The notes beneath the pieces are model-generated. The model did no database searches. It saw only the letters and a list, made by a program, of their open reading frames with translations, and was not told where the DNA came from. The translations under genes were made by a program, and so were the position numbers. From Faecalibacillus intestinalis (GTDB lineage Bacteria > Bacillota_I > Bacilli_A > Erysipelotrichales > Coprobacillaceae): a stretch of DNA of 35,273 nucleotides. The stretch covers positions 1 to 35,273 of the forward strand of contig NZ_PYLQ01000026.1 of assembly GCF_003024685.1 (NCBI RefSeq), written 5' to 3'. Positions 315 through 10,718 of the stretch are shown piece after piece (position 1 is the first letter of the stretch; each line of letters begins with the position of its first letter).

Positions 315-339
315 GATTACGAAATAATTTTTCGTAATC
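315..339 (-). terminator. Rho-independent terminator of the DUF2383-like gene
   Basis: A 10-bp stem (GATTACGAAA / TTTCGTAATC) with a 5-nt loop, followed on the minus strand by a T-rich tract. The TGA stop of the gene at 338-340 touches the foot of the stem. Confidence 0.8.
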
Positions 340-772
340 ATAAATAATTCTGAATCTTATCTGATAATTCTTTTTCTATTTCAATTAAATCATAAGTTAG
401 CTTTTTTATCTTAGTATCAGCATGGTCATATTGATGTAAATATTTAAATAATGATTCTATTCCCATAGAACATCCTTCAAAAAGAAGAGAAGCAATTGTT
501 TGGTCATCTTCATTCATTTGTATTTTAAAATTCATTTTTAACCATGACATACTTTTAGCCATTAATGATGGCTCTTTTTCTTTTATATTATTTTCTTTTA
601 ATAATTGATCAATTTCTTTTTTTAAAGTCTGATGTTTATTTTTAGATTCTATACATTGATTTTTAAAGTGTTTATTTTTTATTACATCTAAAACTTCATC
701 TAAAGAAGAAATAGCCATCTTTAATCCAGAATCACATTCTCTTAATAATAAAATAGTATCATTTTCATTCAT
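338..772 (-). CDS. DUF2383/PA2169-like four-helix-bundle protein
   Basis: A 144-residue soluble, all-helical, acidic protein. The pattern ECDSGLKMAISSLDEVLD near the N-terminus and SLMAKSMSWLKMNFKI in the middle resembles the ferritin-like DUF2383 (PA2169-type) bundle proteins of Bacillota, which are of unknown function; some are associated with stress or spores. I see no clear paired carboxylate/histidine metal site. The start at 770-772 follows an AGAAAGGA ribosome site. It stands alone, with a terminator behind it and the fruA terminator in front, so it is probably monocistronic. The family call is from memory of the pattern and is moderate. Confidence 0.55.
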   Translation of the reverse strand: MNENDTILLLRECDSGLKMAISSLDEVLDVIKNKHFKNQCIESKNKHQTLKKEIDQLLKENNIKEKEPSLMAKSMSWLKMNFKIQMNEDDQTIASLLFEGCSMGIESLFKYLHQYDHADTKIKKLTYDLIEIEKELSDKIQNYL

Positions 773-810
773 AACATTTTCCTTTCTAAAAAAGGTTACC
801 CATTTTTAGA

Positions 811-839
811 AAAAAAATTCTAGGCTTTCACCTAGAATT
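811..839 (-). terminator. Terminator after fruA
   Basis: Stem AATTCTAGG / CCTAGAATT (9 bp) with a 6-nt loop and a run of eight T on the minus strand, five bases after the fruA stop. It ends the fruR-fruK-fruA transcript. Confidence 0.85.
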
Positions 840-844
840 CAATA

Positions 845-2605
845 TTATTTTAAAGGTTTCTTTAATAAGGCTAAACCAAACATTCCTACAATAGAACCAA
901 CAACACATGCTGGTAAAATATGTAATGGATCTGATGCTGCAAAAGGAATAGATCCTTCTGTAATAAATGATAATTCCATAATAATATTGGTAAGTGTTGT
1001 TTGTTGTTCTTTTTCAGTAAAACGATTTTTAAAGAAGAATGTTGCTAGTGCAATAGCAAGTGGTGGAACCATCCCACCAATCATAACGGCTGCCATAATA
1101 TCATAATTACCTGAAGCAATTGATGCTGTACCAAAAACATAAGCTGCTTTATTGATTGGACCACCCATATCAACAGTTATCATACCACCAAGTAACATTC
1201 CTAAAATAACTTTACTTGAACCACCCATTGAATTTAAAGCATTTGTAAGAGCTGTATTGATAGCAGCAACTGGTGGATTGATAATAAATGTCATAAGTAA
1301 TGCCATTAATAATAATCCAAAGAATGGGTATAAAAGAACAGGTTTTAATCCTTCAAATGTATCTGGTAAATAATCAAATAATTTACGTAAACCTTTCATT
1401 AAATATCCAGCTGCAAAACCAGCAACTAAAGCTCCTAAAAATCCTGAATTTCCTTGACTAGCTAAGGCTCCACCAACAAATCCAACAGCTAGACCTGGAT
1501 GATCTGAAATTGACATTGAAATATATCCTGCAAGGATTGGTAACATAAATCCAAAGGCTGTATCTCCTGTTGTTTTAAAGAAAGCAGCTAATGGTGTATT
1601 TTTACCAAAGTTACTTGGATCAATTGTATAATCATCAAATAAGAAAGCTAAGGCAATTAAAATACCTCCACCAATAACAAATGGTAACATATGACTGACA
1701 CCATTCATTAAATGTTTATAGATTTGACGACCAACACTTTCATCACTTTCACTTTCTACAGTTGTAGAAACATGATCTGCATGATAAATTGGTGCATTTC
1801 CACTTAAAGCTTCATTAATTAATTCTTCTGCTTTATTGATACCATCTGCAACTTTTACTTGAATCACTGGCTTTCCATCAAAACGTACCATTTCAACATT
1901 TTTATCAGCAGCAACAATAATTGCTTCACATTCTTCAATTTCCTTAGCAGTTGGAGCATTTTTAGTTCCACTACTACCATCAGTTTCGACTTTGATTGTA
2001 ATTCCCATTTGTTTCGCTTTTTCTTCCAAAGCTTCAGCCGCCATATAAGTATGCGCAATACCTGTTGGACAAGCAGTTACTGCAAGCAAACGATAAGTTC
2101 CTGTAAATTCTTTTTGCGCTTCTTCTTTTTCTTCTTCTTTAGCTTTTTGTTTAGCTTCTTTTTGATTGATCAAATCCATAAATTCTTCTACACTTTGAGC
2201 ATTAATTAATGAATCTTTAAAATCCGTATCCATTAACATTTGAGATAACATTGCTAGAATTTGCAAGTGTTCGTTTCCACCTGTTTTAGGGACCGCAATC
2301 ATAAAGAACAGTTTTGCTGGTTAATTATCTAAAGATTGATAATCAACACCATCTTTAACAACCATTGCCGCAAGTCCTGGAGCGTTTACAGCTTCACTTC
2401 GAGCATGAGGAATCGCAATTCCTTCTCCAATTCCTGTTGTACTTAATTCTTCACGTGCATAAATTCCTTGTTTATAAACATCTTGATCATTTAAATTACC
2501 TTGTTTTGTCATTAATGAAACTAATGTATTAATAGCTTCATCTTTATCTAAACATGTAGCGTTAACATCAATCGAAACATCTTTTTATAAATCTAAGATT
2601 TTCAT
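845..2605 (-). pseudogene. fruA: PTS fructose transporter EIIABC, broken by two in-frame stops
   Basis: One continuous frame of 587 codons encodes EIIA-EIIB-EIIC of a fructose PTS but has TAA at codon 7 (2585-2587) and codon 95 (2321-2323). The EIIA phosphohistidine motif (GIAIPHARS), the EIIB cysteine loop (TACPTGIAHTYMAAE) and the multi-span EIIC are all readable, so decay is recent. Each stop sits where the family would allow glutamine (MKILDL*KDV, LDN*PAKLFF); single C-to-T changes of CAA would explain both. The C-terminus also looks short: DPLHILPACVVGS passes straight into the terminal IVGMFGLALLKKPLK, without the GCTLRAPHGG-type segment I expect in fructose EIIC, suggesting an in-frame loss of about 40 residues. 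The ATG directly follows the fruK stop. The fragment 845-2302 could be translated only from an internal ATG without a ribosome site. Sequencing error is the alternative. Confidence 0.85.
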
Positions 2606-3523
2606 TTATAGTTCTTTCACTTTTAATTGTTTATAGACTTCTTGAATCATTGAAGCTTCAGCAAGATCTTCACTAAAAGCAGTTGCTCCTCCACAAGCAC
2701 TTCCTAATTTTAAAGCTACATCATATTTTTTATCTTTTAAATATCCAGCAATGAATCCAGCAACCATGCTATCTCCACTACCAACACTATTTAATAATTT
2801 TCCTTTAGCACCTGCACAATAATAAACATGATCGTCCTCACTTACTAAAATAGCACCATCTTTTCCAAGAGATACAAGAACATTAATTGCTCCTTGTTCT
2901 TGTAATTTTCTTGCATAGAAAATTAAATCTTCTTGATTTTCTATTTTTACATTAAATAATTCTTCTAATTCACGATGATTAGGTTTTATTAAGAAAGGAT
3001 GATAAGGTAATACTTTCTTTAATAAATCATTCGTTGCATCAACAATAATTTTAATTCCTTGTTGATCTAATTTTTTCATGATTTGTTCATAAATATCACT
3101 AGGTAAAGAAGATGGAATACTTCCCGCAAGAACTAAAATATCATTTTCTTGTAAATGATCTAATTTTTCAAATAACTCATTTAATTTTTCTTGAGGAATA
3201 TCTGGACCACTTCCATTAATTTCAGTTTCTTTAGCCCCTTTCATTTTAACGTTAATTCTTGAAAGACCATTTTCTAACTGACATAAATCGCAGTCAAATC
3301 CTCTTTCTTTTAATTCTTTAACAATTTCTTCACCTGTAAATCCTGCAACAAACCCTAAAGCTGTTGTTTCAAGATTCAAACGACTTAAAATTGTTGAAAC
3401 ATTAAATCCTTTACCTCCAGGATAAATTTCTTCTTGCTTTGAACGGTTTGTTTCCCCTTCTTCAAAACAATCAACATGCATAATATAATCCAAAGATGGA
3501 TTAAAAGTAATTGTATAAATCAT
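2606..3523 (-). CDS. fruK: 1-phosphofructokinase
   Basis: A 305-residue PfkB/ribokinase-fold kinase that phosphorylates fructose-1-phosphate to fructose-1,6-bisphosphate in the cytoplasm. Family marks: MIYTITFNPSLDYIMHV at the N-terminus, the substrate/nucleotide glycine motif GGKGFNVS near residue 37, LVSLGKDGAIL, and the catalytic-base/anion-hole motif NSVGSGDSMVAGF near residue 245 (GxGD). Length is normal for FruK. It overlaps fruR by one base (TAATG) and touches the fruA start, so the three genes form one operon. It remains intact although its transport partner fruA is broken; fructose-1-phosphate would then need another route, such as another PTS. Confidence 0.93.
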   Translation of the reverse strand: MIYTITFNPSLDYIMHVDCFEEGETNRSKQEEIYPGGKGFNVSTILSRLNLETTALGFVAGFTGEEIVKELKERGFDCDLCQLENGLSRINVKMKGAKETEINGSGPDIPQEKLNELFEKLDHLQENDILVLAGSIPSSLPSDIYEQIMKKLDQQGIKIIVDATNDLLKKVLPYHPFLIKPNHRELEELFNVKIENQEDLIFYARKLQEQGAINVLVSLGKDGAILVSEDDHVYYCAGAKGKLLNSVGSGDSMVAGFIAGYLKDKKYDVALKLGSACGGATAFSEDLAEASMIQEVYKQLKVKEL

Positions 3524-4266
3524 TAATCTCTAACCTCCACAACTGTCGCTTGTTCTTTAATTTCTTTTTCACAATGATCTGTAATAATCACCGCATCATT
3601 TATTTGACCAAAGGTCACATGATATATCTTATTAAATTTACTATGATCCGATAAAACATAACTCATTTGACAACGTTCCATAGCCAATTCCTTAATAGCA
3701 GCTTCTTCACTATCTGGTGTCGTAAAACCATTCATTATATCAATTCCATTTGTTCCAAAGAAACCTTTAGAAAAATGATAACGACTTAATGACTTCATCG
3801 TATTAGCACCCACACATGCCCCTGTAATATTTCTCACTTCTCCACCAAGACATACTACATGAAATCCTTTAATGGTCAATTGTTGAGCTTGCATTAAACC
3901 ATTAGTAATATAGTGTGCTTCTTTTTGATCTAAATATTCAATCAACTCTAAAGTTGATGAACCTGCATCTAAATAAACCACATCATTGGCTTCAATCATT
4001 CCTGCTGCATACTTTGCAATTTTTTTCTTTTCATCAGCATTTAATAACTGTCTTTTCCCTAATGGATCTTCAATCGTTTGTGTTACCTTAGGAATAAGGG
4101 TTGCACCTCCATGAACTCTTTTTAAGAATCCTTGATGATCAAGTTCTACTAAATCTCTTCGTATACTTGATTCACTCGCTCCTGTAAGTTCAACAAGAGA
4201 AGCTACAGTCACATTTCCTTTTTTATCTAATTCATTTAAAATAATTCGATGGCGTTGATTATCCAT
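3523..4266 (-). CDS. fruR: DeoR-family repressor of the fructose operon
   Basis: A 247-residue DeoR-type regulator: N-terminal winged HTH (QRHRIILNELDKKGNVTVASLVELTGASESSIRRDL) and C-terminal sugar-phosphate-sensing DeoRC domain (DAGSSTLELIEYL, GGEVRNITGACVG, SDHSKF). Such FruR proteins usually respond to fructose-1-phosphate. I place the start at ATG 4264-4266, behind AAGAGGTGA, rather than the in-frame GTG at 4273-4275, which lies inside the ribosome site. It is the first gene of the fru operon and probably represses its own promoter through the direct repeats at 4295-4339. Confidence 0.88.
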   Translation of the reverse strand: MDNQRHRIILNELDKKGNVTVASLVELTGASESSIRRDLVELDHQGFLKRVHGGATLIPKVTQTIEDPLGKRQLLNADEKKKIAKYAAGMIEANDVVYLDAGSSTLELIEYLDQKEAHYITNGLMQAQQLTIKGFHVVCLGGEVRNITGACVGANTMKSLSRYHFSKGFFGTNGIDIMNGFTTPDSEEAAIKELAMERCQMSYVLSDHSKFNKIYHVTFGQINDAVIITDHCEKEIKEQATVVEVRD

Positions 4267-4288
4267 ACTGATCACCTCTTACGCGTTC

Positions 4289-4339
4289 ATTATATGACCG
4301 TTCAATCATAAAGTCAATTATATTTTGACTGTTTAACCA
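4289..4339 (-). promoter_or_regulatory. fru promoter with two FruR half-site direct repeats
   Basis: On the minus strand a near-consensus sigma-A promoter reads TTGACT (4312-4317), 17-bp spacer, TATAAT (4289-4294). Two direct repeats, TGATTGAACGGTCA (4295-4308, filling the spacer) and TGGTTAAACAGTCA (4326-4339, just upstream of -35), match at 11 of 14 positions and are 31 bp apart, about three helical turns. This fits DeoR-type repression by FruR. Confidence 0.8.
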
Positions 4340-4358
4340 TAGAAATGAATATAAAATG

Positions 4359-4392
4359 AAAAAAAGAGCACTATTTTGAATGAATGCTCTTT
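4359..4392 (-). terminator. Terminator of the MFS-SDR-Dabb operon
   Basis: Stem AAAGAGCA / TGCTCTTT (8 bp) around a 14-nt loop with a following T run on the minus strand, between the Dabb gene and the fru promoter. Confidence 0.7.
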
Positions 4393-4409
4393 GATATCTG
4401 AATGAATGC

Positions 4410-4700
4410 TTAAATTATATAATCTATTGCGGTAACAGTTTCCATTTCTGTACCATCCATTAATAATTTTTGATGTTCCTTTGATTGGGGATATTTTTGT
4501 AAGTCTATCAGATTAGAAAACTCAACAATTTGAATCACATCACCGAAATGAGGTCCCACAGGTGGTTGTTCACCTATATTTACCCCTACTTCACTTTTAA
4601 TAATCAAAGGACAATTTTTACCAACTTCTTCTAACATTTCAACAAAATGTTTAATTTCACTTTTATCTTTTAAAGTAAATACCGATACATGTTTAATCAT
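4410..4700 (-). CDS. Dabb (stress-responsive alpha/beta barrel) domain protein
   Basis: A 96-residue single-domain protein. The pattern MIKHVSVFTLKD at the N-terminus, the central VGPHFGDVIQIVEFSNLIDLQKYPQSKEHQKL and the ending TAIDYII are typical of Dabb proteins, small dimeric ferredoxin-like barrels; some relatives are cyclases or decarboxylases of small phenolic or polyketide molecules, most have no known reaction. It is the last gene after an SDR oxidoreductase (12-bp gap) and an MFS pump, so a role in handling the same small hydrophobic compound is a reasonable inference. Confidence 0.75.
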   Translation of the reverse strand: MIKHVSVFTLKDKSEIKHFVEMLEEVGKNCPLIIKSEVGVNIGEQPPVGPHFGDVIQIVEFSNLIDLQKYPQSKEHQKLLMDGTEMETVTAIDYII

Positions 4701-4712
4701 CTTTTCTCCCTT

Positions 4713-5483
4713 TTAAGCAATATGCATTCCACCATCTATAAATATTTTTTGTCCTGTTGTATGACTTGCTTGGTCACTACTTAGCCATAATACAGCATTA
4801 ACCACTTCATTTGTTGTCGCAAGTTTTTTCATAGGAATCACATGTTCTTTCAACATTGCTTCTTCATGAGGATTAGTTGAAAGTGAATTTTTGGTAAGTT
4901 CTGTTCCCATGGTTGGACCTGGACAAATGGCATTGACACGAATACCAAATGCCGCATTTTCTAAAGCTGCCATTTCTGTTAAAGCAATAACTGCTGCTTT
5001 AGCTGGACCATAAGCAGCAAATCCAGGTGCCATTTTATATCCACCAATAGAAGCTGTATTAACAATTGTACCAAAACCTTGTTTTTGCATTTGTAACAAT
5101 TCATATTTTAAACAAAGAAAAACACCTTTCATATCCACATCAACTACTAAATCCCATGTTTTTTCAGAAATTTCTGTTAAGGATTCATAAGGCATACGTA
5201 CACCATCTGGTCCAATACCCGCATTATTAAAAGCACAATCAAGACGCCCATATTTTAAAACAACTTCTTCAATAGCTTTTTTTACATCTTCTTCTTTAGA
5301 AACATCACAGTGAATATAAAAAGCTTCATTTCCTATTTCTTTTATTGCTTGCTTACACACTTCCTCTTTATCTACAGTAAAAGCAACAACATGGGCTCCT
5401 TTTCTTGAAAACTCAATAGCTGTTTGCTTTCCAATACCACTTGTTCCTCCGGTAATTACAACCACTTTATCTTTAAAATTCAT
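4713..5483 (-). CDS. Short-chain dehydrogenase/reductase
   Basis: A 256-residue classical SDR. The cofactor motif TGGTSGIGKQTA lies near residues 12-23, NNAGIG near residue 90, and the catalytic triad as S (NTASIGGYKMAPG) followed by YGPAK (Tyr-x3-Lys); the C-terminus carries the usual TTGQKIFIDGGMHIA. The acidic residue after strand 2 of NAD-preferring enzymes is not obvious, so cofactor is open. I choose the ATG at 5481-5483 because AAAGGAGGAAG precedes it by a good distance; an upstream in-frame start would lie within that site. The MFS gene runs 11 bp into it, so the two are translationally coupled. Substrate unknown. Confidence 0.9.
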   Translation of the reverse strand: MNFKDKVVVITGGTSGIGKQTAIEFSRKGAHVVAFTVDKEEVCKQAIKEIGNEAFYIHCDVSKEEDVKKAIEEVVLKYGRLDCAFNNAGIGPDGVRMPYESLTEISEKTWDLVVDVDMKGVFLCLKYELLQMQKQGFGTIVNTASIGGYKMAPGFAAYGPAKAAVIALTEMAALENAAFGIRVNAICPGPTMGTELTKNSLSTNPHEEAMLKEHVIPMKKLATTNEVVNAVLWLSSDQASHTTGQKIFIDGGMHIA

Positions 5484-6948: not shown

Positions 6949-6966
6949 AATGTGCCTAAGCACATT
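6949..6966 (-). terminator. Terminator of the RpiR-type gene, holding its stop codon
   Basis: Stem AATGTGC / GCACATT (7 bp) with a 4-nt loop; eight T follow on the minus strand. The TAG stop of the gene (6956-6958) lies inside the loop. Confidence 0.85.
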
Positions 6967-7702
6967 CATGGTAACGAGACATCATCATATCTATCAAACA
7001 ATGAAACATGATTCTTCTCTCTTTCATTTCTAAATGATCAATAGGTAAAAGTAATGTTTCATGAAAATAGTTTAACATCTTTTGATCAATCATCTGTGTT
7101 GAAATCAAAAGTTTACGCCCTTGACTTCTTAAAAGCTTTCTTAAATAACGTGAAGATTGTTTACTTAAAGCATCCTCTTCAATTCCTATAACAAGTAATA
7201 AGTCATCTTCTTTTAGTTCAATTGTTGATTCATTTTCATCTAAAACCAACATATCTTTTTGAAAAAGATCACCTTCATATTGAAGATACTTACAAAGCAA
7301 ATGAGAATAAGCAACTCCATAAAGATAAACATGTTTAGCTTTTTCTATTGCTTTAATAAAATCATCTATTTGATTTTGGTTAATTTCTAATAGATTATTT
7401 TCTATCCATTCAAATGAATTATGTAATTGTTTTTTTGTAAGCTGATGTTGGCTATTATTTACTTGATTTCTAATTTCTAATTCTAATAAGCAATCATCTT
7501 TAAAGGCAATATAGTTATCATAACCAATTTTTTTTATAAATTTAGAGATTTTTGCTTTAGAAACATAGGTTTGTTTTGCAAGTTCTTCAATGGACATAAA
7601 AACAACTTCTTTTAAATTCATTTTAATATAGTTACAGATCGCATAATCGATATCACCTTGTTGACTATTATTTAATAATGTATTTATTTTATTTGTTATC
7701 AT
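6956..7702 (-). CDS. RpiR-family transcriptional regulator (HTH plus SIS domain)
   Basis: A 248-residue RpiR/MurR-type protein. Residues about 1-75 form the HTH_6 domain (SIEELAKQTYVSKAKISKFIKKIGYDNYIAFK), and about 95-248 a SIS sugar-phosphate domain (AIEKAKHVYLYGVAYSHLLC, then ELKEDDLLLVIGIEED). I set the start at ATG 7700-7702: upstream in-frame extension to 7798 would read through a strong terminator at 7728-7749. It follows the mannose-type PTS operon on the same strand but has its own possible promoter (TGTTATACT, extended -10, at 7718-7726). It may sense a sugar phosphate made by that PTS; target genes are not shown. Confidence 0.82.
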   Translation of the reverse strand: MITNKINTLLNNSQQGDIDYAICNYIKMNLKEVVFMSIEELAKQTYVSKAKISKFIKKIGYDNYIAFKDDCLLELEIRNQVNNSQHQLTKKQLHNSFEWIENNLLEINQNQIDDFIKAIEKAKHVYLYGVAYSHLLCKYLQYEGDLFQKDMLVLDENESTIELKEDDLLLVIGIEEDALSKQSSRYLRKLLRSQGRKLLISTQMIDQKMLNYFHETLLLPIDHLEMKERRIMFHCLIDMMMSRYHECA

Positions 7703-7727
7703 AATATCACCAGATAAAGTATAACAT

Positions 7728-7750
7728 AAAAACCGCCTAAGCGGTTTTTT
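7728..7750 (-). terminator. Terminator of the mannose-family PTS operon
   Basis: Stem AAAAACCGC / GCGGTTTTT (9 bp) with loop CTAA; it can work on both strands. It separates the PTS operon from the RpiR-type gene. Confidence 0.88.
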
Positions 7751-7757
7751 GTATGAG

Positions 7758-8042
7758 TTATAGAGAGTTTTTATATTTAAAGGAAAACTGATCAACAATT
7801 TTATTTATGTTTTTCTTACCACTGTAAATAGCCTTTCCAACAAGGATAATCGCTAATATAGATATTATTATTAATATGATTGCAAAGATTTTTACAAATA
7901 GGATATTTGAAAAATAATACATCAATAAGACTCCCAGAGAGGAAAGGAAGAACAAATTGCGTAACCATTTTATAAGATTATGAATCATTTTCTTTTGATA
8001 GTTAATTTCATCTATATATCCTTGTTTTTCTTGACTATTCAT
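7758..8042 (-). CDS. Small two-helix membrane protein of the PTS operon
   Basis: A 94-residue protein of unknown function. Residues 1-27 are polar and charged (MNSQEKQGYIDEINYQKKMI), then two hydrophobic helices (about 30-48, LFFLSSLGVLLMYYFSNIL, and 50-70, IFAIILIIISILAIILVGKA), then a lysine-rich tail. Start at ATG 8040-8042 behind AAAGGAGA. It lies 13 bp after the IID gene and before the operon terminator, so it is co-transcribed with the PTS. It is not the DUF956/ManO protein often found at this place. A role as an accessory or assembly factor of the permease is only inferred from position. Confidence 0.75.
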   Translation of the reverse strand: MNSQEKQGYIDEINYQKKMIHNLIKWLRNLFFLSSLGVLLMYYFSNILFVKIFAIILIIISILAIILVGKAIYSGKKNINKIVDQFSFKYKNSL

Positions 8043-8055
8043 TTTTTTTCTCCTT

Positions 8056-8892
8056 TTAATAAGATAATCCTGGATTGAAGAATCCAACAAACACACCAAT
8101 AAAGGCAACAACAACTAATAATAACATTACTTTAATTGGTGACATTTTCTTTTTAGATAATAAATACCAACATCCAACAACAAAGACAGCTGTTAATAAT
8201 CCTGGATAAACACCATCTAATGTTTTTTGTAAATCTAAGAATGGTTTTTTAGCTCCAGCTGCTGTCATCGTAAATGAAGTTGTTACTGAAATCCATGTTG
8301 CTGATACAGCACCGATAACAATACCACCTAACATTGTGACTGATTCTCTTAAAGCTTCCCCTTGAGGACCAACTAAGAAATCAACCGCTTTTCCACCTAA
8401 TTCATATCCTTTGAAATATAAGAATTTCATTCCAAAGTAAGCAAATAAGTTCCATACAATGATGTACATGATAGCTCCAAGAGGTGAACCTCCTGTAGAC
8501 ATACCTAAAGCAATACCAAGTAAAATAGGAATAACTGTTCCTACAACTAGGGAATCCCCAATACCGGCGATTGGTCCCATTAAACCAGCTCTTAAACCGT
8601 TGATTGTTTCATCATCAACATCTTCTGTTCCGTTGGCACGTGCTTCTTCTAACCCAGCTGTCATCCCAACAATAACAGTACCAAGTTGAGGTTCTGTATT
8701 AAAGAAAGCAGTGTATGTTTTCATTGATCTTGCTTGATCTTCTTTTTTATCATAAAGTTCTTCTACTACTGGTAACATAGAGCATAGATAACCAAAAGTT
8801 TGCATATGTTCTTGAGAGAAGCATGTTAAGTTTCCATAATACCAATTGTGGAAGGATTTAGTTAATGTTTTTTTAGATAGTTTCTTTTCCAT
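8056..8892 (-). CDS. PTS mannose/fructose/sorbose-family IID component
   Basis: A 278-residue EIID subunit of the mannose-family permease. Typical sequence: SFHNWYYGNLTCFSQEHMQTFGYLCSMLP near the N-terminus, FFNTEPQLGTVIVGMTAGLEE, and GLRAGLMGPIAGIGDSLVVGTVIPIL; the C-terminal end carries hydrophobic segments ending GVFVGFFNPGLSY. It forms the membrane channel with IIC. I choose the ATG at 8890-8892: GAGGAGG precedes it, while an upstream in-frame start would overlap the IIC stop region. The IIC stop lies one base upstream of the ATG. Exact sugar cannot be told from sequence. Confidence 0.93.
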   Translation of the reverse strand: MEKKLSKKTLTKSFHNWYYGNLTCFSQEHMQTFGYLCSMLPVVEELYDKKEDQARSMKTYTAFFNTEPQLGTVIVGMTAGLEEARANGTEDVDDETINGLRAGLMGPIAGIGDSLVVGTVIPILLGIALGMSTGGSPLGAIMYIIVWNLFAYFGMKFLYFKGYELGGKAVDFLVGPQGEALRESVTMLGGIVIGAVSATWISVTTSFTMTAAGAKKPFLDLQKTLDGVYPGLLTAVFVVGCWYLLSKKKMSPIKVMLLLVVVAFIGVFVGFFNPGLSY

Positions 8893-8893
8893 C

Positions 8894-9739
8894 TTAAATA
8901 TCCTCCTCATCTTCATCATCAAAGTCTCCTGCAGGTGCAGCTACTCTTTGATTTTGTAACATTTTTAATTTGTAGTTAATTAAAGCAAACATACCAGCAA
9001 TCACTGTTGCTGCAACTAAATTGATTCCCATTGAAGCAGCAAGAGTAAATCCAAAGAAAAATGGAATGAAATCTACTGCTTTTGTAACAATTTGTTTTAA
9101 TAAGATTGCAATTCCGACACATGGTAATAATGATCCAACTGTAAATAAAGTTTTCATAGCTAATCCATCCATAGGTAATGTTGTTTTAATAAGTTCAACA
9201 ACATCTGCTCCTAATTTACACATAATTAAGGCTGGAATAAATGAACATAAAATATGTGAAATCCAAGGTAATACCATATCTACAAGATATAATTTATGAT
9301 AATCCCCTTTTTCAACAGCTTTCCATCCAACATGTTGCCATGCTAAGTTGATTGTTGCTGTTCCATAGAATAATACTGTACCTAAAGTACCAACCATTGT
9401 TCCAAATGAAGTTGCAAGAGCTGCTCCTTCTTTTGTGGCAGCTGATAAACCATAACTATTTAACGCTACCATTGCAAGTGGAATCCCAATGTAACTTACA
9501 GCACGAACGTCTGCTGAAACGGTTCCACCTGGAGTAACTAATGCAATGTAGACAACTTGCATTGCTGCTCCTACTAAAATACCTGTTTTGATATCTCCTA
9601 AGATAATCCCACAAACAAGTCCCCCAATTAAAGGACGACCTAATGTGTAGTTACCAAAGGAAGTACCACCTAATCCTGGCATACTTGATAAACAAGCAAA
9701 TAAACCAAGTAATGCCGCTTGTAACCAACTAATTGTCAT
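8894..9739 (-). CDS. PTS mannose/fructose/sorbose-family IIC component
   Basis: A 281-residue EIIC subunit with about seven to eight hydrophobic segments. Marks: MTISWLQAALLGLFACLSSM, GGTSFGNYTLGRPLIGGLVCGIILGD, GAAMQVVYIALVTPGGTVSADV. It transports the sugar together with IID. Ribosome site AAAGGGGAAG before ATG 9737-9739. The acidic tail (GDFDDEDEEDI) resembles the tail of the IIA protein in the same operon (VVEDDEDDI). Confidence 0.93.
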   Translation of the reverse strand: MTISWLQAALLGLFACLSSMPGLGGTSFGNYTLGRPLIGGLVCGIILGDIKTGILVGAAMQVVYIALVTPGGTVSADVRAVSYIGIPLAMVALNSYGLSAATKEGAALATSFGTMVGTLGTVLFYGTATINLAWQHVGWKAVEKGDYHKLYLVDMVLPWISHILCSFIPALIMCKLGADVVELIKTTLPMDGLAMKTLFTVGSLLPCVGIAILLKQIVTKAVDFIPFFFGFTLAASMGINLVAATVIAGMFALINYKLKMLQNQRVAAPAGDFDDEDEEDI

Positions 9740-9769
9740 AATTTTTCTTCCCCTTTATTTATATATTTG

Positions 9770-10261
9770 TTAAAAACCAAATTTATCTTTAAAATCATCC
9801 CATGTTCCAATTGAAACATCTGGTAATAAAGCAAATTTGATTGTATAACCTGCTTTAGCCAAAGCTTCAAAAGCTTCTGCTTCTTCTTGTGTAATCGATT
9901 GATTGTTTCCTAGTTTTGTTGCCCCTTCACGATCATTACAAGGTCCAACAATAACTGTTTTAATACCACAATCAAATCCTTGATCAACAAGAATTTTTTT
10001 CATATCAATAGGATTTTTAGTAATTAAGAAATATTGATCTTGACTATCTAAAACCTTTTGACTTTTCTTTTGCCAAGCTTCCATTGTCCATACAAATGTT
10101 TTCTTTCCACTGGCTGATTTGTAAGCTGCTTTTAATACTGAATTATTTGCTGCTTTATCGTTTACAGCCACTAAACCATCGCATGGGTATTCTCTTGCCC
10201 AACGTGTACATGTTTGACCGTGAATCATACGATCATCAATTCTAATAAATGAAACTGACAT
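9770..10261 (-). CDS. PTS mannose/fructose/sorbose-family IIB component
   Basis: A 163-residue soluble EIIB of the mannose family. The phosphoryl-accepting histidine is His14 in RIDDRMIHGQTCTRW, the classic motif. Length is normal for a separate IIB domain. It receives phosphate from IIA (next gene upstream, 12-bp gap) and passes it to the sugar during uptake by IIC/IID. Ribosome site AAGGAGG before the ATG. Confidence 0.94.
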   Translation of the reverse strand: MSVSFIRIDDRMIHGQTCTRWAREYPCDGLVAVNDKAANNSVLKAAYKSASGKKTFVWTMEAWQKKSQKVLDSQDQYFLITKNPIDMKKILVDQGFDCGIKTVIVGPCNDREGATKLGNNQSITQEEAEAFEALAKAGYTIKFALLPDVSIGTWDDFKDKFGF

Positions 10262-10273
10262 TTTTCTTCCTCC

Positions 10274-10696
10274 TTAAATATCATCTTCGTCGTCTTCTAC
10301 GACTTTAAATTCTTGTAAAGCAGTTGTTGCTTCACTTAAGACAGCTTGTACAAAGGAATCTCCTTGTAAAGTATCTTTCATTAATACTGAAGTAAGGGCT
10401 AATGGTAAATTCATCCCACCAATTGTTGTTGTCTTTTCCATTAAACCTTTTTCAGCTAAAACATTTAAAGCAGTTGTAAGTGGTGATCCTCCTACAATAT
10501 CCGCTAATAAAACAATTTCATCATCTTCATGAATGTCCTTAACACTTTCTTTAAAAATTTCCGCAAATTCATCTGCTGTCTTTCCATCAGGTAAACCTGA
10601 AGCAATCACATCATCCCTTTGTCCTGCCAACATCATTAATGATGTTTTTAAACCAGCTGCAAATTCACCATGACTTACTAATACTAAATATTTCAT
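10274..10696 (-). CDS. PTS mannose/fructose/sorbose-family IIA component
   Basis: A 140-residue EIIA of the mannose family. The active histidine is His9 in YLVLVSHGEFA; DIVGGSPLTTALNV and GGMNLPLALTSVLM are typical. Start at ATG 10694-10696 behind CAAGGAGGGAAGG; upstream extension would overlap this site. First gene of IIA-IIB-IIC-IID-membrane protein. Its control region holds a promoter with a cre site and three phased copies of an operator shared with the neighbouring sensory operon, so expression likely depends on that two-component system and CcpA. Confidence 0.93.
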   Translation of the reverse strand: MKYLVLVSHGEFAAGLKTSLMMLAGQRDDVIASGLPDGKTADEFAEIFKESVKDIHEDDEIVLLADIVGGSPLTTALNVLAEKGLMEKTTTIGGMNLPLALTSVLMKDTLQGDSFVQAVLSEATTALQEFKVVEDDEDDI

Positions 10697-10718
10697 GTCC
10701 TTCCCTCCTTGCACCTAT

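Follow-up and report, generated by a model that had tools for sequence, protein, structure and literature searches.

Probable recent pseudogenisation of fruA in the otherwise intact fruRKA operon of Faecalibacillus intestinalis

Organization of the fru locus

Is the fruA gene of Faecalibacillus intestinalis, whose reading frame is interrupted twice, a genuinely decayed gene and, if so, has fructose uptake been lost with it? The window analysed is a stretch of 35,273 nucleotides that corresponds to an entire contig of a draft genome (2.79 Mb, 100% complete, 53 contigs). With a probability of about 0.92, we consider that fruA is a genuine and recent loss-of-function pseudogene and that the fruRKA operon is otherwise intact.

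The fruA gene (positions 845-2605, reverse strand) comes last in a fruR-fruK-fruA cluster. Its frame has 587 codons and, as claimed from a previous sequence-only reading, it is open except for internal stops, which number exactly two and are both TAA. When the frame is read through these stops, the EIIA-2, EIIB-Fru and EIIC-Fru domains are all detected in a single chain, and the three models of fructose-family PTS transporters of FruA EIIABC type (TIGR00848, TIGR00829 and TIGR01427) score above their cut-offs. The gene also resembles these systems by its domain order and by its location in an operon with a 1-phosphofructokinase and a DeoR-type regulator. However, it differs from them by its frame, which should be uninterrupted but has TAA at codons 7 and 95, and by its incomplete EIIC that covers only model positions 6-294 of 346 and lacks the APHGG segment found in 80 of 80 relatives.

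The two other genes, fruK (1-phosphofructokinase, 2606-3523, reverse strand, above the TIGR03828 cut-off) and a fruR-like gene encoding a DeoR-family regulator (3523-4275, reverse strand), both look intact and constrained, in agreement with the initial reading. A strong terminator-like hairpin (807-842, reverse strand, -13.2 kcal/mol, z -4.8, followed by a U run) is located directly after fruA. Therefore, there is no obvious gene downstream on which the stops could exert a polar effect and, since fruA is the last gene of the operon, fruR and fruK can stay in use.

Lesions of fruA

The nearest orthologues of this fruA belong to Faecalibacillus. Two genomes of this genus that carry the fruR-fruK-fruA locus (one genome per species) were used as sisters: Faecalibacillus faecis SNUG30370 and the MAG S9M_St_35. 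Their fruA proteins share 95-96% identity with that of the window, the neighbourhood is shared, and the sequence upstream of fruA is conserved. Unlike the gene of the window, those of the sisters are uninterrupted and encode full-length proteins of 627 and 625 aa. On the other side of the gene (window 338-900), nucleotide identity with the sisters decreases to 72-74% immediately past the end of fruA, compared with about 92% before it.

Codon 95 (TAA, 2321-2323, reverse strand) is CAA (Gln) in both sisters, so that the lesion is a C-to-T transition. Codon 7 (TAA, 2585-2587, reverse strand) is TTA in both sisters and encodes Leu in 79 of the 80 relatives; here, the lesion is a T-to-A transversion. 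The proposal that both stops replace a glutamine thus stands for codon 95 and fails for codon 7, and the two CAA-to-TAA transitions that had been put forward are refuted. A search in viral contigs for the DNA pattern around codon 95 gave no match.

The third lesion is a 123-nt in-frame deletion (junction at 880-905, reverse strand). Alignment with the relatives shows that the C-terminus, already suspected to be shortened, is incomplete and lacks 41 codons. The missing segment includes APHGG and, among its 41 columns, 12 reach a conservation of 97% or more. In the closest sister, the direct repeat GTTGGTTC (8-9 bp) is found at both ends of this segment, an arrangement that fits replication slippage. 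It had been proposed that an RAPHGG-type segment was lost between two VVGS-coding stretches: the loss of APHGG and, in the DNA, the direct repeat are borne out, whereas the protein of the closest sister reads VVGS and AVGS at these places.

Furthermore, four near-invariant residues of fruA are replaced (R369H, M476I, G544E and A552S) and no such replacement was found on the sister branches; the positions of R369H and G544E are invariant in 80 of 80 relatives. Hence, the active-site motifs, described as intact, are so for the EIIA histidine region and for the CPTGIAHT loop of EIIB, but not for EIIC, in which conserved residues are changed and APHGG is gone. The disabling lesions have no counterpart in the orthologues found at the same locus, as for a pseudogene. 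In the decay that we propose, the two nonsense substitutions would have cut the EIIA domain, slippage between the short direct repeats would have removed a conserved segment of EIIC, and invariant residues would be beginning to be replaced.

Age of the decay

Columns at least 97% conserved among the 78 other relatives were considered as conserved; they represent 32% of the fruA columns. Among the 17 changes unique to the fruA of the window, five (29%) affect conserved columns (L7 to stop, R369H, M476I, G544E and A552S), which is close to the random expectation. On the sister branches, none of the 14 changes of fruA does, a result that would have a probability of 0.005 if hits were random. For fruK and fruR, conserved columns are changed in none of the three genomes. 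As evidence against decay, the nonsynonymous/synonymous ratio of the fruA branch is only 0.08 versus 0.035-0.05 in the sisters, and the protein-changing excess on the fruA branch of the window, taken alone, is not significant (Fisher p = 0.10). Since the divergence is mostly synonymous and most of the branch was under constraint, fruA must have been lost recently. Assuming an excess of about nine protein changes, the neutral phase might cover very roughly 5% of the branch.

Origin of the lesions

That the lesions result from real decay rather than from an assembly slip, as first suggested, is well supported by independent lesions of three kinds and by a repeat too short for collapse by an assembler: two nonsense substitutions, one deletion and four replacements of near-invariant residues are all confined to the genome of the window. 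An error of sequencing or assembly might be suspected since a single genome is concerned and since it is a draft of 53 contigs. However, such an error would have to produce two separate substitutions and four replacements at conserved sites within one gene while leaving the adjoining fruK and fruR clean, and the repeat flanking the deletion (8-9 bp) is shorter than any usual assembly k-mer; this explanation is therefore very unlikely.

The gene could also have been split into a working one, with translation restarting at the ATG at position 2302 to give an EIIBC protein and EIIA being supplied elsewhere. A 485-aa open frame does include EIIB and EIIC, and the dN/dS of the branch is still low. 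However, visual inspection of the sequence preceding this ATG reveals no evident ribosome-binding motif, the EIIC lacks a segment found in 80 of 80 relatives, and R369H and G544E affect positions invariant in all of them. Judging from this conservation, a functional transporter would not be expected even with a restart at position 2302, because EIIC would lack the APHGG segment, and we regard a split working gene as highly improbable. Finally, a functional fruA whose TAA codons are read through by a suppressor or a reassigned code (only these two TAA interrupt the frame, and Gln fits codon 95) has a practically negligible probability: the relatives have different residues at the two sites (Leu and Gln) and the 41-codon deletion in EIIC would persist, which largely refutes reassignment, and TAA, the usual terminator in the window (25 of the 38 listed ORFs), indicates no code change.

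The genuine decay of fruA is explained by an ordinary recent pseudogenisation. In gut Firmicutes that have several paralogous sugar transporters, it is commonplace for one of them to decay. Although this genome has a fru operon, it should not be assumed that the operon encodes a working fructose transporter; this is a warning for annotation and little beyond.

Consequences for fructose uptake

Another contig of the same genome (C3) encodes a second, intact FruA-like EIIABC (623-aa frame), 49% identical to fruA, and this type of second FruA is also present in the sisters. The genes of HPr and enzyme I (EI) are present as well. Therefore, the recent loss of fructose PTS uptake that had been suggested does not follow, and the takeover by another permease, put forward as the alternative, may have occurred. 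The genome does not contain another, uninterrupted copy of this fruA but only the 49% paralogue, which may cover the substrate of fruA. Since no second clear fruK was found in the genome either, the intact fruK may serve the C3 paralogue. The loss of fruA might even have been advantageous and not simply neutral, with fruK and fruR kept in use for fructose-1-phosphate delivered by the C3 FruA-like transporter or by another permease in a species-specific, rewired fructose regulon; we consider this unlikely. The sole lead in the literature, PMC12136445, deals with fructoselysine uptake in Faecalibacterium and has no bearing on fruA.

Contig C78 of one sister genome, G002, carries a further EIIABC of the fructose family (3241-4878) that was matched in three pieces (L012, L014 and L016), two of which have an internal stop; this could be a second paralogue that is decaying or divergent.

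Neighbouring genes

The window also encodes an RpiR-family regulator (6956-7798, reverse strand) that has diverged from its counterparts in the two sisters far more than the neighbouring genes. Its frame is open and its branch-specific changes include 53 protein changes versus 33 synonymous ones; possible causes are selection, either relaxed or positive, and a replacement of the gene through recombination. Moreover, a mannose/sorbose-family PTS (IID, IIC, IIB and IIA, all below the NCBIfam cut-offs) is encoded at 8056-10714 (reverse strand).
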